A DNA stretch of 64,000 bases from Bordetella bronchialis (GTDB taxonomy: Bacteria; Pseudomonadota; Gammaproteobacteria; Burkholderiales; Burkholderiaceae_B): assembly GCF_001676705.1 (NCBI RefSeq), contig NZ_CP016170.1:2976001-3040000 (forward strand). The letters run 5' to 3'. Both the position numbers and the translations under genes were made by a program. The notes under the pieces were generated by a model. It was not told the origin of the DNA and made no database searches. It saw only the letters and a program-made list of their open reading frames with translations. Positions 21,838-26,549 of this stretch are shown here, piece after piece; positions within the stretch are counted from its first letter, which is position 1; every line of letters begins with the position of its first letter.

Positions 21838-23055
21838 ATGCTGCGACTCGACTTCCACCCCGCCGGCCGCCATTTCCTGCAGATCCCCGGTCCCAGCCCC
21901 GTGCCGGACCGCCTGCTGCGGGCCATGAGCTATCCCACCATCGATCATCGCGGGCCGGAGTTCGGCGCGCTGGGCCTGGAAGTCCTGCAAGGCATCAAGA
22001 AAATCTTCAAGACCCAGCATCCCGTGATCATCTACCCGGCTTCCGGCACGGGCGCATGGGAAGCCGCGCTGTCCAATACCATGAGCCCCGGCGATCGCGT
22101 CCTGATGTTCGAGACCGGCCATTTCGCCAGCCTGTGGAAGAAGATGGCCGACGGCCTGGGCCTGCAGACGGAATTCCTGGGCCTGCCCGGCACCGAAGGC
22201 TGGCGCCGCGGTGTGCAGCCGCGGATGATCGAGGATCGCCTGCGCGCGGATACCGGCCACCAGATCAAGGCCGTCTGCGTCGTGCATAACGAAACCTCCA
22301 CCGGCGTCACCTCGGACATCGCCGCCGTGCGCCGCGCCATCGATGCCGCCGGCCACCCCGCCCTGCTGATGGTCGATACGATTTCCGGCCTGGCCTGCGC
22401 CGACTATCGCCACGACGAATGGGGCGTGGACGTCTCGATATCGGGCTCGCAGAAGGGACTGATGCTGCCCCCGGGCATCAGTTTCAACGCGGTGTCGCCC
22501 AAGGCCATCGCGCGCAGCGAGCAAGGCGGCCTGCCGCGCAGCTTCTGGCGCTGGTCGGAGATCCTGGAAAGCAACAAGACGGGCTATTGGCCCTATACCC
22601 CCAGCACCAATCTGCTGTACGCCCTGCGCGAATCGCTGGAGATGATCCTGGCCGAGGGCCTGGACGCGGTCTTCGCGCGCCACCAGCGGCTGGCGCATGC
22701 CTGCCGGGCGGCGGTCCAGGCCTGGGGCCTGGAGATCCAGTGCGTGGAGCCCGAACGCTATTCGCCGGTGCTGACCGGCGTCATGATGCCCGACGGCGTG
22801 GACGCCGACGCGGTGCGCCAGTTGATCTACGAGCGCTTCGACATGTCGCTCGGCACCGGGCTGGGCAAGATCAAGGGCCGCATGTTCCGCATCGGCCACC
22901 TGGGCGATTGCAACGACCTGACCCTGATGGCGACCCTGGCGGGGTGCGAGATGGGCTTGAAGCTTTCCGGCGTCGCGCTGGCCGGCAGCGGCGTACAGGC
23001 GGCGATGGACATCCTGCAGGACAAGGCCCGGGAGCGCCGGGCCAAGGCGGCCTGA
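21838..23055 (+). CDS. class V aminotransferase, serine-glyoxylate type
   Basis: The 405-residue PLP enzyme belongs to the alanine/serine-glyoxylate aminotransferase group. It begins with FLQIPGPSPVPDRLLRAMSY and has YPASGTGAWEAALSN (about 66-80), Asp180 in LLMVDTISGLA, and Lys206 in SGSQKGLMLPPG, which would hold the cofactor. It would transfer an amino group to glyoxylate or a related 2-oxo acid. CAGGAGCGAGG precedes the ATG. It heads a run with tctC, tctB, tctA and a GlcD/GlcF-like oxidase, which suggests catabolism of an imported compound through glyoxylate or a hydroxy acid. Confidence 0.9.
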   Translation: MLRLDFHPAGRHFLQIPGPSPVPDRLLRAMSYPTIDHRGPEFGALGLEVLQGIKKIFKTQHPVIIYPASGTGAWEAALSNTMSPGDRVLMFETGHFASLWKKMADGLGLQTEFLGLPGTEGWRRGVQPRMIEDRLRADTGHQIKAVCVVHNETSTGVTSDIAAVRRAIDAAGHPALLMVDTISGLACADYRHDEWGVDVSISGSQKGLMLPPGISFNAVSPKAIARSEQGGLPRSFWRWSEILESNKTGYWPYTPSTNLLYALRESLEMILAEGLDAVFARHQRLAHACRAAVQAWGLEIQCVEPERYSPVLTGVMMPDGVDADAVRQLIYERFDMSLGTGLGKIKGRMFRIGHLGDCNDLTLMATLAGCEMGLKLSGVALAGSGVQAAMDILQDKARERRAKAA

Positions 23056-23123
23056 CGCCGCGCCGGGCGACCGCCACCCAGAAGGCGACGCCACGTCCGC
23101 GGCCACACACCACGGAGGAGACC

Positions 23124-24104
23124 ATGATGCAGTCAAGCAGAGTGCGCAGCGCGATAGCCCTGGCGATGGCGGCCTTGATGCCGGCGGCGGCGTGGGCCTG
23201 GGAGCCCACCAAGCCGGTGGAAATCATCGTGCCGTTCAGCGCCGGCGGCGCGTCCGACCAGATGGCCCGCACCATCCAGGGCATCGTCGCCAAGCACAAC
23301 CTGATGAAGCAACCCCTGGTTGTCGTGAACAAGGCCGGAGCGTCCGGCGCCGAAGGCCTGATGGACGCCAAGGCGTCCACCGGCGATCCGCACAAGCTGC
23401 TGGTGGCCTCGTCGGCCTTGTACACGGTACCGCTGATCAGCAAGCTGCCGTTCAATTGGCGCGACCTCTCGCCGGTGGCGATGGTGGCGGTGGACGAGTT
23501 CGTGCTGTGGGTCAACGCCAAGTCGCCGTACCAGACGGTGGACCAGTTCATCGCCGCGGCCAAGGCCGGCAAGCTGAAGATGGGCGGCACCAGTTCCAAG
23601 CGCGAGGACCAGATGATTACCGCCATGGTGGAACACGCCACCGGCGCCAGGTTCATCTACGTGCCCTACAAGGGCGGCGGCGAGGCGGCCACGCAGCTGT
23701 CGGGCAACCATATCGATGCCAACGTCAACAACCCGGCGGAGTCCGTCGCGCAATGGCGCGCGGGCGAGCACCGCGCGCTGTGCGTCTTCGCCGAACAGCG
23801 GCTGTCCTATACGCAGAAGGTGACCGAGACGCAGAGCTGGGCCGACATCCCGACCTGCAAGGAAAAGGGCCTGGACGTCCACTACGAGATGCTGCGCATC
23901 TTCCTGCTGCCGGGCAAGGTCGGCGCCGACCAGGTCGCCTACTACGCCGACGTCTTCAAGAAAATCAGCGAGACGCCGGAATGGAAGCAATACCTGGAGC
24001 GATCGGCGCTGAAGCCCGAGCTGCTGACCGGCCCCGCCCTGACCCAGTATCTGGAGAAGGACGAAACCCTGCACAAGGACATCATCAAGTCCGCCGGCTT
24101 CTAG
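23124..24104 (+). CDS. tctC: tripartite tricarboxylate transporter receptor TctC
   Basis: The 326-residue receptor has a signal peptide (cut near AAAWA, residue 25) and the core KPVEIIVPFSAGGASDQMAR, YVPYKGGGEAATQLSG. It is more divergent than the other receptors in the window: it lacks the usual NRAGAGG loop (VNKAGASGAEGLMD instead). It is the only one here followed directly by TctB and TctA, so it is the true receptor of a complete transporter. GGAGGAG lies before the ATG. Confidence 0.93.
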   Translation: MMQSSRVRSAIALAMAALMPAAAWAWEPTKPVEIIVPFSAGGASDQMARTIQGIVAKHNLMKQPLVVVNKAGASGAEGLMDAKASTGDPHKLLVASSALYTVPLISKLPFNWRDLSPVAMVAVDEFVLWVNAKSPYQTVDQFIAAAKAGKLKMGGTSSKREDQMITAMVEHATGARFIYVPYKGGGEAATQLSGNHIDANVNNPAESVAQWRAGEHRALCVFAEQRLSYTQKVTETQSWADIPTCKEKGLDVHYEMLRIFLLPGKVGADQVAYYADVFKKISETPEWKQYLERSALKPELLTGPALTQYLEKDETLHKDIIKSAGF

Positions 24105-24156: not shown

Positions 24157-24663
24157 ATGGAGCAAGAGCAAGAGCGGCCCGGGAGCCGCGCCGTGGTGTC
24201 GTACATGGCCATGGAGCTGGCGGTCGCCGTCCTGCTTGCCGCGCTGGCGGCGACGGTGATCTGGAGCAACTACATCATCGGCGCGGGCTGGACGGACGAC
24301 GGGCCGCAGGCGGGCTATTTCCCGATGCGGATCGGCATCATCATCCTGATCGCGACCGCCGCGGTGGCGATACAGGCCCTGCGCAAGCGCGACCGGCGCG
24401 CCTTCGTGCACCTGGACGAACTGCGCCAGGTGGGCGTGGTACTGGTGCCGCTGGTCGTCTACGTCGCCCTGATCCACTTCCTGGGCATCTATGTCGCCTC
24501 CGCGCTCTTCGTCGCGGCCTTCATGCGCTGGGTGGGCAAGTACCCCTTGTGGAAGGGGCTGCCGCTGGCCGTGGCCATCATGATGGTCCTGTTCTGGGTA
24601 TTCGAGATGAAGTTCCTGGTGCCGCTGCCCAAGGGGCCGCTGGAGAACCTGCTGGGCTACTAG
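24157..24663 (+). CDS. tctB: tripartite tricarboxylate transporter small membrane subunit TctB
   Basis: The 168-residue protein has four hydrophobic segments: LAVAVLLAALAATVIW, IGIIILIATAAVAI, VVLVPLVVYVALIHFLGIYV and LPLAVAIMMVLFWVFEM. The family pattern is seen in GPQAGYFPMRIG near residue 50 and in the ending FLVPLPKGPLENLLGY. It forms the small membrane part of the transporter. Its last codon base and stop lie inside the left arm of the 272-bp palindromic element. Confidence 0.92.
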   Translation: MEQEQERPGSRAVVSYMAMELAVAVLLAALAATVIWSNYIIGAGWTDDGPQAGYFPMRIGIIILIATAAVAIQALRKRDRRAFVHLDELRQVGVVLVPLVVYVALIHFLGIYVASALFVAAFMRWVGKYPLWKGLPLAVAIMMVLFWVFEMKFLVPLPKGPLENLLGY

Positions 24664-24931
24664 GGCCTGTTAACGCTAGAAGGAGCCTCGCATGAGTACG
24701 CAAACCGGTGGATGGCAAGGCACGAAGCGCAGTCGTGGTGGTGCCACGGCGAGCATTCGTAACGCGGCCAGGCGCCGGTTTGCGTACTCACCCTACGGGC
24801 TGGCCGAGTCCGGGGCGGCATACGTCGTTACGGACTCCTCACGTGGATTAACCACGCCGCGTCGTCCGCGCCTAGTCTGCCGCCCCGGACTCGGCCAGTG
24901 CGAGGCTCCTTCTAGCGTTAACAGGCCCTAG
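24660..24931. repeat. 272-bp multi-hairpin palindromic element inside the tct operon
   Basis: A perfect 33-bp inverted repeat (24660-24692 with 24899-24931) encloses three further hairpins. Arm A has a 16-bp perfect stem (24693-24708 with 24775-24790). A tiny CCC-TAC-GGG hairpin lies at 24791-24799. Arm B has a 21-bp perfect stem (24800-24820 with 24878-24898). No base is left unpaired at the four-way junction. Both arms end in CGTGG-N5-CCACG hairpins (24734-24748 and 24842-24856). The outer ends read TA-GGGCCTG and CAGGCCC-TA, fitting a 2-bp TA target duplication. It could be a non-autonomous mobile element (MITE-like), a structured RNA or a DNA cruciform. It enlarges the tctB-tctA gap to 365 bp. 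Confidence 0.9.
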
Positions 24932-24955
24932 GACGAGACGGCGCGGCGGCCGGGC

Positions 24956-24983
24956 CGTGCCGGATGCCGCGGATTCCGGCACG
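24956..24983 (+). other. hairpin between palindromic element and tctA
   Basis: CGTGCCGGA (24956-24964) and its complement TCCGGCACG (24975-24983) form a 9-bp stem with a 10-nt loop, 45 bp before tctA. It is separate from the larger element and has no T-run. It may act as an mRNA processing or stability structure in the tctB-tctA leader. Confidence 0.45.
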
Positions 24984-25028: not shown

Positions 25029-26549
25029 ATGCAAGAACTATCCGCGCTCTGGGACGGCTTCGGCGTCGTCATGTCCTGGGGCAACGTCGGCCTGATGATG
25101 GTCGGCATCCTGCTGGGCATCGTGGTGGGCGTGCTGCCCGGCCTGGGCGGCCCCAACGGGGTGGCGATCCTGCTGCCCCTGACGTTTTCCATGCATCCGA
25201 CCTCGGCCATCATCCTGCTCTCGTGCATCTACTGGGGCGCGCTGTTCGGGGGCGCCATCACGTCGATCCTGTTCAACATCCCGGGCGAGGCCTGGTCGGT
25301 GGCCACCACCTTCGACGGCTATCCGATGGCCCAGCAGGGGCGCGCCGGACAGGCACTGACCTCGGCCTTCACCGGCTCCTTCTTCGGCGCGCTGGTCGGG
25401 GTGCTGCTGATCACCTTCCTGGCCCCGGCCGTTGCGCGCTTCGCGCTGCGTTTCGGGCCGGCGGAGTTCTTCTCGGTCTACCTGCTGACCTTCTGCAGCT
25501 TCATCGGCATGGGCCGCGAATCCAAGCCCAAGATAATCATCGCCATGGGCATCGGTTTCGCGCTGGCCGCCGTGGGCATGGACACCGTATCGGGCGACCT
25601 GCGCATGACCTTCGGTTCGTCGGAGTTGCTGCGCGGCTTCGACTTCCTGGTGGCGGTGATCGGGCTGTTCGGCATCGGCGAGATCCTGCTGACCATGGAG
25701 GAAGGCGTCGCCTTCAAGGGCAAGAAAGCCGCCATCGACCTGAAGGTGGTGTTCAAGACCTGGGCCGGGCTGCCGCGCTACTGGCTGGTGCTGTTGCGTT
25801 CGGCGGCGATCGGCTGCTGGCTGGGCGTGACGCCGGGCGGCGCCATCGCGGCGTCTTTCATGGGCTATGGCGTCGCGAAGAAATTCGCCAAGGACCCGGA
25901 CTCCTTCGGCAAGGGCAATGTGGAAGGCGTGCTGGCGCCCGAAACGGCGGCGCACGCGGCGGGCACCAGCGCGCTGCTGCCCATGCTGGCCCTGGGCATT
26001 CCAGGTTCCGCGACCGCCGCGGTCCTGCTGGGCGGACTGATGATCTGGGGCCTGCAGCCCGGCCCGCTGCTGTTCGCGGAACAAAAGGAATTCGTGTGGG
26101 GCCTGATCGCCAGTATGTACCTGGGCAACTTGGCGGGACTGTTCGTGGTGCTGTGCACCGTGCCGCTGTTCGCCGCCATCCTGCGCATCCCGTTTTCCAT
26201 CGTCGCGCCGATGATCCTGGTGGTATGCGCCATCGGCGCCTACACCGTGCATAACGCGGGCTTCGATATCTGGCTGATGCTGGTGTTCGGCGTGGTGGGT
26301 TATCTGTTCAAGAAGCTGCAGTACCCCCTGGCCCCGCTGGTGCTGGCCCTGGTGCTGGGCGATCGCGCCGAAGACGCCTTCCGCCAGACCATGCTGATTT
26401 CCTCCGGCAGCCTGAGTGTCTTCTGGTCCAACGGCCTGGTCGGCAGCATCGTCGCCCTGGCTTTGGTCGCCCTGTTCTGGCCGCTGATCTCGGCGGCCTT
26501 CACGCGCCTGCGCAAGCACCGCAGCAACCTGTCGCCACGCTATCCATGA
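25029..26549 (+). CDS. tctA: tripartite tricarboxylate transporter large membrane subunit TctA
   Basis: The 506-residue, roughly twelve-helix protein has the TctA signatures GVLPGLGGPNGVAILLPLTF (about residues 38-57), ILFNIPGEAWSVATTFDGYP (about 88-107) and ALGIPGSATAAVLLGGLMIW (about 325-344). It forms the channel that, with TctB, imports the ligand delivered by TctC in exchange for an ion gradient. GGGAGGAC precedes the ATG at 25029; an in-frame upstream start at 24957 lacks one. The 3' end overlaps the oxidase gene by 4 bp (ATGA). Confidence 0.95.
   Translation: MQELSALWDGFGVVMSWGNVGLMMVGILLGIVVGVLPGLGGPNGVAILLPLTFSMHPTSAIILLSCIYWGALFGGAITSILFNIPGEAWSVATTFDGYPMAQQGRAGQALTSAFTGSFFGALVGVLLITFLAPAVARFALRFGPAEFFSVYLLTFCSFIGMGRESKPKIIIAMGIGFALAAVGMDTVSGDLRMTFGSSELLRGFDFLVAVIGLFGIGEILLTMEEGVAFKGKKAAIDLKVVFKTWAGLPRYWLVLLRSAAIGCWLGVTPGGAIAASFMGYGVAKKFAKDPDSFGKGNVEGVLAPETAAHAAGTSALLPMLALGIPGSATAAVLLGGLMIWGLQPGPLLFAEQKEFVWGLIASMYLGNLAGLFVVLCTVPLFAAILRIPFSIVAPMILVVCAIGAYTVHNAGFDIWLMLVFGVVGYLFKKLQYPLAPLVLALVLGDRAEDAFRQTMLISSGSLSVFWSNGLVGSIVALALVALFWPLISAAFTRLRKHRSNLSPRYP

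Follow-up and report, generated by a model that had tools for sequence, protein, structure and literature searches.

The closest described counterparts of the element reported here are bacterial MITEs such as Correia/NEMIS, RUP, and ERIC, which the part of PMC2229807 available to us describes as small, non-coding, dispersed, and stably folded sequences with terminal inverted repeats and TA ends, all of them traits that our element shares. For the IS427 group of IS5-family insertion sequences (ISs), the accessible part of PMC3281130 lists members measuring 832-865 bp, whose duplications are 2 bp long except for one of 4 bp; some of these members have two overlapping frames. REP sequences are palindromes of 20-40 bp according to the portion of PMC3733652 at hand. 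Here, we describe an element located between tctB and tctA in a 64,000-nucleotide stretch of the Bordetella bronchialis contig NZ_CP016170.1 (hereafter, the window), where a first-pass annotation had pointed to a fully paired, cloverleaf-like structure. A long ORF (22419-24104) upstream of tctB has a later part that we take to resemble a TctC-type receptor, and the ORF list also holds a longer tctA frame starting with GTG at 24957.

The element is a mobile insert with a target duplication. The two closest relatives found, G048 and G007 (tctB identity of 89 and 83%, respectively), both offered empty sites, reading GGCTATTAGGTATGACGG in G048 and GGCTATTAGCACG in G007, relative to which the window carries an additional 266 bp plus an exact second copy of the TA in the stop codon of tctB. 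At the insertion, the window reads GGCTACTA, the 266 bp, and then TAGGACGAGACGG, with TAGG at the right junction, where the G048 counterpart reads GGCTATTAGG. Because the element starts with a G, insertion at the TA of the TAG regenerates the stop codon and the C-terminal GY of TctB is kept. Seven more distant tctB loci lacked the element, and none of the nine tctB loci examined held a match to the element end when up to 3 mismatches in 16 bases were allowed. A solo end in the Alcaligenaceae genome CAII-53 (L001:508-532) lies again at a TAC TAG stop codon, like the window element.

Table 1. Features at the tctB-tctA insertion, in window coordinates.
Feature	Position	Strand	Basis or remark
tctB	24157..24663	+	PF07331, ORF; stop codon made up of the left TA and the G that begins the element
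Terminal stem, left half, 33 bp, contains end GGGCCTGTTAACGCTAGAAGG	24660..24692	+	repeat check, fold
Left target duplication TA (first two bases of the tctB stop TAG)	24661..24662	.	empty-site comparison
Mobile element, 266 bp	24663..24928	.	empty sites in G048 and G007; 13 of 16 listed end pairs span 266/267 bp
Arm A, 98-nt hairpin	24693..24790	+	repeat check, fold
Core in arm A, GGCAAGGC...GTAACGC, bulged hairpin	24712..24770	+	model R2 (both window cores are among the 32 rows that built it), 71.0 bits
Central mini-hairpin CCC-TAC-GGG	24791..24799	.	repeat check, extracted elements, fold
Arm B, 99-nt hairpin	24800..24898	.	repeat check, fold
Core in arm B, inverted relative to core A	24820..24879	-	model R2, 57.8 bits
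Terminal stem, right half, 33 bp	24899..24931	-	repeat check, fold
Right target duplication TA	24929..24930	.	empty-site comparison
tctA	25030..26549	+	PF01970; ATG start by comparison with kin

The 33-bp inverted repeat, the two arms, and the mini-hairpin all lie where the first-pass annotation had placed them, and the closed four-stem junction that it claimed was recovered in the minimum-energy fold (RNA parameters), whose parts add up without any unpaired junction base (33+98+9+99+33 = 272). The outermost 16 bp of arm A pair perfectly, as does a 21-bp stem in arm B, and a DNA fold of positions 24640-24950 reached -130.4 kcal/mol (z = -15.8), a value equaled by 0 of 100 shuffles. The paired structure does span the 272 bp that had been proposed as the unit, but the mobile part extends from G24663 to C24928, so that the outer CTA/TAG of each 33-bp repeat falls outside. 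Similarly, the CGTGG-N5-CCACG tips to which attention had been drawn are present in both arms (24734-24748 and 24842-24856) but are altered in several of 15 aligned copies; the conserved part is the core around the arm tips, CAAGGCGC...GCAACG, as seen in the 15-copy alignment and later core comparisons. No core copy beyond those in arms A and B was found in the window at E values up to 0.001. A long hairpin pairing one half of the element with the other was also considered and rejected, as it was weaker than the best fold in 15 of 15 copies with RNA and DNA parameters alike.

The element is short, contains no transposase gene within its 266 bp, and is bounded by terminal inverted repeats (a property of the window element, since the extracted set discussed below was selected for them), and it belongs to a family with multiple dispersed copies. 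When genome contigs were scanned with the 20-base end, two records matched, CAII-53 (G001) and Olivibacter; the Olivibacter 20-mer (L002), a lone end with no partner, was read as chance. CAII-53 displayed 39 end matches at up to 3 mismatches versus 0 for the reversed pattern, and 17 of 200 kin genomes contained the end when a single mismatch was allowed (0 for the reversed control). Among the matches listed for CAII-53 and for the kin genomes, 13 of 16 facing end pairs span 266 or 267 bp, the other three being short (47, 128, and 169 bp). Further copies are solo ends or tiny hairpins, whose appearance suggests internal deletion at short homologies (e.g., GGCC), with one frequent solo form in 6 of 30 loci. 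The original suggestion of a MITE with a TA duplication is thus borne out by the empty sites, the TA flanks, and the dispersed copies. Searches of plasmids, phages, E. coli, and viral contigs with the window element or its end yielded no relative; the nine plasmid matches of the element covered 9-16% of the query and none was convincing. At four CAII-53 loci (L012, L015, L021, and L024), another repeat, GGGGTCAGACCCC...GGGGTCTGACCCC, adjoins element ends.

The ends of the element resemble those of IS5-family ISs of the IS427 group. A likeness to IS5-type ends had been suspected at the outset and is supported by the IS ends in G001 and G070, by a 15-base match in G625, and by the TA duplication. 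PF13340 transposases occur in three of seven copy-bearing kin genomes and in none of the other four. At the PF13340 loci of G001 and G070, we found ISs of 823-824 bp with ends such as TTAGGGCGTGTTAACACTAAT; one G001 copy (L082) has two reading frames, and the G070 IS is flanked by CA, not TA. The PF13340 locus of G068 displayed no end of that type, and PF13340 was absent from 15 of 19 wider genomes. Among 12 wider genomes with 39 PF13340/PF01609 loci, the end of the genome's own element was matched at such a locus in two. One of these, G634, carries an IS5-type transposase (PF05598, PF01609) with ends AAGGGAAACACTGATCAA next to an element with ends CTAGGGGAACACTGATTAG. The other, G625, has a truncated IS427-type IS (L241:1501-1664), in which a PF13340 fragment scoring short of the curated cut-off (E = 2e-5) adjoins the end CTAGGGCCTGTTAACACTGATAG; the outer end of this IS, GGGCCTGTTAACACT, is identical in 15 of 15 bases to element ends in G091 and G036 and matches both the window's end and G625's own element in 14 of 15. 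A complete copy of the G625 IS, if present elsewhere, would be the best mobilizer candidate; at the PF13340 and PF01609 loci that we looked at, no complete autonomous IS carrying the element's own ends was found. From these matches, confined to G634 and G625 among the 39 loci, we infer that an IS5-family transposase, of the IS427 group in these hosts, mobilizes the element in trans.

The stems of the element covary, so that this check proposed in the first-pass annotation, like those for dispersed copies and empty sites, turned out positive. Of the 1634 pair cells in 15 distinct full-length copies, 95.3% hold standard pairs, and 48 of 109 pairs have changed on both sides. Such both-sided changes amount to 203 cells, compared to a mean of 61 for shuffled and at most 24 for slid versions, in a set of 15 related rows, one of which supplied the reference structure. 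Two copies in G068 differ by an inversion of the arm B interior, which is a DNA-level event.

The two arms are inverted copies of each other, given that a model of arm A finds arm B on the opposite strand of the same elements (in G044, with 58.9 bits and E = 3.5e-9). In plain alignments, arm A scored higher against the reversed than against the direct arm B in 13 of 15 copies; in 7 of 15, this score failed to exceed the maximum of 500 nulls, and the covariance model settled the question. What the arms have in common is a 59-nt bulged hairpin, the core, which occurs under many different terminal repeats; the arm A model additionally picks up single-arm elements (~160 bp) bounded by other ends. 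At E values up to 1e-4, a core model, scored on at most 15 or 18 candidates per genome (a number that several genomes reached), detected the core in 72 of the 369 genomes that make up a class sample, presumably Gammaproteobacteria in the GTDB sense in view of the Alcaligenaceae start, and in 37 of 299 genomes of a phylum sample. The gapped pattern GCAAGGCGCN{32,42}GCAACGCC yielded 329 matches in 60 of the 369 genomes, as compared to 5 when reversed, and some of the single matches, in coding sequence, look like chance. The class consensus reads GCAAGGCGC - stem - CGCAGG - stem/loop - TCAAG - stem - GCAACGCCGC, its middle being less conserved. For 28 core loci with full flanks (among them L190, a kin locus whose core is in the model; the edge-cut L208 and L210 were left out), flanking stems beat all 300 shuffles in 23, and a CCC-N3/4-GGG lies 17-20 nt past the core in 15.

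Several further forms were observed. A single-arm form of 161-169 bp with ends like AGGGAAGCTCTGAACAAG occurs at L148-L154, and loci L193, L195, L198, L205, and L218 represent a class of ~240 bp, with ends such as AACCTAAAAACGGCAGTTG, in which the core is differently arranged. The core pattern matched 2 viral contigs, L189 (4781-4837 and 7214-7270) and L188 (5108-5166), in single-arm forms, one L189 copy having paired ends TTAAGGAACCTCTGAACAATTCC. The G070 single-arm form matched 10 plasmid records, from Cupriavidus, Diaphorobacter, Comamonas, and others, with no listed feature at these places in a gene table that is incomplete, and the L148-L154 form is related to these plasmid stretches; the L212 and L203 forms had no plasmid match.

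The genes around 47 core loci are ordinary chromosomal ones, with no transposase among the 25 commonest of the 136 Pfam families found in 129 neighboring ORFs; LptF/LptG accounted for 4 of the 129 neighbor proteins across all core loci. These surroundings bear on an early remark, prompted by the closed junction, that the element resembles the terminal hairpins of some replicons, and on the reading that such a hairpin was captured in the chromosome. Some replicon ends, parvovirus-like or telomere-like, form T-shaped closed junctions, and this likeness is what speaks for such an origin. The element, however, lies in the interior of the window rather than at a molecule end, its relatives are dispersed copies with target duplications among ordinary genes, and plasmids and phages held no convincing match; given the empty sites on top of this, we regard such an origin as hardly credible.

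The same two-arm plan recurs widely. We assembled 49 different two-arm elements, of which the window and kin loci contributed 27 and another 22 genomes the remaining 22, drawing on the window, L060-L072, and L155-L237 (among L191-L237, 22 of 47 loci yielded an element) and leaving out the CAII-53 full copies L004 and L010. As extraction required an enclosing repeat of 245-290 bp, the terminal stem and the total length do not count as independent evidence. A mini-hairpin near the center was present in 48 of 49 elements, the fold had a terminal stem with three branches in 47 of 49, and the junction was free of unpaired bases in 45 of 49. In the 47 folded elements, arms measured 79-104 nt, mostly 97-101 nt, and the core started 21-25 nt from the junction (median, 23 nt) in 43 of 47 first and 36 of 47 last arms, counting those with a readable motif. 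The ends of the 49 elements comprised 28 different 12-base strings, some of them mere register or single-base variants, and 28 of 49 elements were flanked by TA left and right, compared to 8 of 2695 shifted positions.

The conserved core, an imperfect hairpin with unpaired bases of which some hosts hold many copies, is reminiscent of REP/BIME repeats, where a RAYT (Y1) transposase would read the bulged hairpin as single-stranded DNA. We consider this very improbable, as the TA duplication and the long terminal repeats are marks of the DDE type and the 266-bp element far exceeds a REP palindrome in length.

Whether the fold acts as DNA or RNA can be judged from the mismatches that it tolerates, since stems selected as RNA should tolerate G.U more than A.C. 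Over 2930 stem positions in 47 elements, counted without regard to orientation, G.U and A.C occurred 78 and 76 times (31 and 28 in the terminal stems; 47 and 48 in the arm stems). Because a G.U on one strand is an A.C on the other, we repeated the test in two orientations, and with related rows, small numbers, and crude gene calls, the counts were 58 versus 45 when oriented by core A (p = 0.24, 31 elements) and 23 versus 23 when oriented by co-directional neighbor genes (19 elements). As G.U is no commoner than A.C, DNA is favored over RNA; the equality lends no support to RNA-level selection and fits DNA, either selected or repaired. Rfam 15 gave no match at gathering score in the window or in 20 loci, and, at E values up to 1 in 5 loci, a single one, mir-1227, with 25.3 bits against a cut-off of 70. 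The idea of a structured RNA, which had been raised from the sequence, therefore found no support in the G.U test or in Rfam. On this view, the element, transcribed as part of an operon, would fold and be cut by RNase III or tune the mRNA, a role proposed for the NEMIS repeats of Neisseria. The position between tctB and tctA and the stable RNA fold would suit such a role, and the part of PMC2229807 at hand reports long stem-loop transcripts, and their processing by RNase III, for MITEs of bacteria. The flanking genes, by contrast, are co-directional in 21 of 37 elements and opposed in the other 16 (crude longest-ORF calls), and together with the G.U counts in both orientations and the Rfam result, this makes an RNA function improbable.

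The balance of G.U and A.C in stems that are mostly Watson-Crick would also be expected of a passive product, that is, an ordinary MITE whose arms are kept perfect by template-switch (quasi-palindrome) repair, with its structure unselected. Template-switch correction could yield paired changes without selection, and the inverted arm interior in G068 and the solo ends with their common form, resembling deletions at short homologies, agree with such a history. Simple repair, however, should smooth away unpaired bases, and the constancy of the core's unpaired bases, and of its distance from the junction, in many genomes counts against it; we hold a passive product to be unlikely, though not implausible.

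Taken together, we consider it probable that the locus harbors a 266-bp, TA-inserted MITE that is moved in trans by an IS5-family transposase and whose covarying two-core cloverleaf acts as DNA and serves the element. The element inserted at the TA within the tctB stop codon with duplication of the TA; an IS5-family transposase would bind the GGGCCTGTTAACRCT-type ends and move the element in trans. The cloverleaf would extrude as a cruciform from supercoiled DNA or, alternatively, fold as a hairpin where replication or excision leaves the DNA single-stranded. Judging from its conservation, the core would be a putative protein docking site, located about two helical turns from the junction, and a docked protein might conceivably synapse the ends or shield the palindrome from host nucleases. 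The fold would thereby benefit the element, by aiding its movement or survival, rather than the host gene. Since the same four-armed fold is found across many bacteria despite sequence change, the folded DNA probably does something.

We accordingly regard the family as a superfamily of MITEs whose architecture is conserved and new, with a putative core function. More tentatively, and with somewhat less than even confidence, we propose phylum-wide, structure-defined cloverleaf transposons in which one protein, of the host or of a transposon, reads the core, present as two inverted copies at a constant spacing from a four-way DNA junction, while the ends are swapped to fit the local IS5-like transposase; if true, bacteria would have an equivalent of the core domains common to SINEs, one that acts as folded DNA. 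A gene-free element that holds an exact folded plan across many bacteria as its sequence turns over provides many natural variants with which to test directly what folded DNA does in transposition or in the survival of an element, and the core model can be used to annotate a repeat that had no listed feature at the 10 plasmid matches. The open-access literature yielded no description of the cloverleaf, and, as far as that search extends, a two-core cloverleaf under many ends is new; ISfinder was beyond its scope, and individual members may thus have been named earlier.

Compared to the IS427 group, as far as the accessible part of PMC3281130 represents it, the ISs found here share GGGCCTGTTAAC/GGGCGTGTTAAC-type ends, and the listed members, but for one with 4 bp, have 2-bp duplications as the element does; the ISs found here measure 823-824 bp against the listed 832-865 bp, and the element itself differs in having no transposase or visible internal IS sequence. 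The CIR repeats of Caulobacter, in the part of PMC2229807 available, are similar in that a long stem-loop of its own arises from each of their 5' and 3' sections, and unlike the element in being without terminal repeats, a comparison made at the level of description. The bacterial MITEs presented in the same part of PMC2229807 are, at ~100-200 bp and in particular host groups, smaller and narrower in range. The element stands apart from them by its two inverted cores, its mini-hairpin, its fixed junction, its many ends, and its occurrence in both the class and the phylum samples. Eukaryotic SINEs, which are retroposons copied via RNA, have a shared conserved central domain with different ends, and, by analogy only, the element likewise keeps a conserved center under differing ends.
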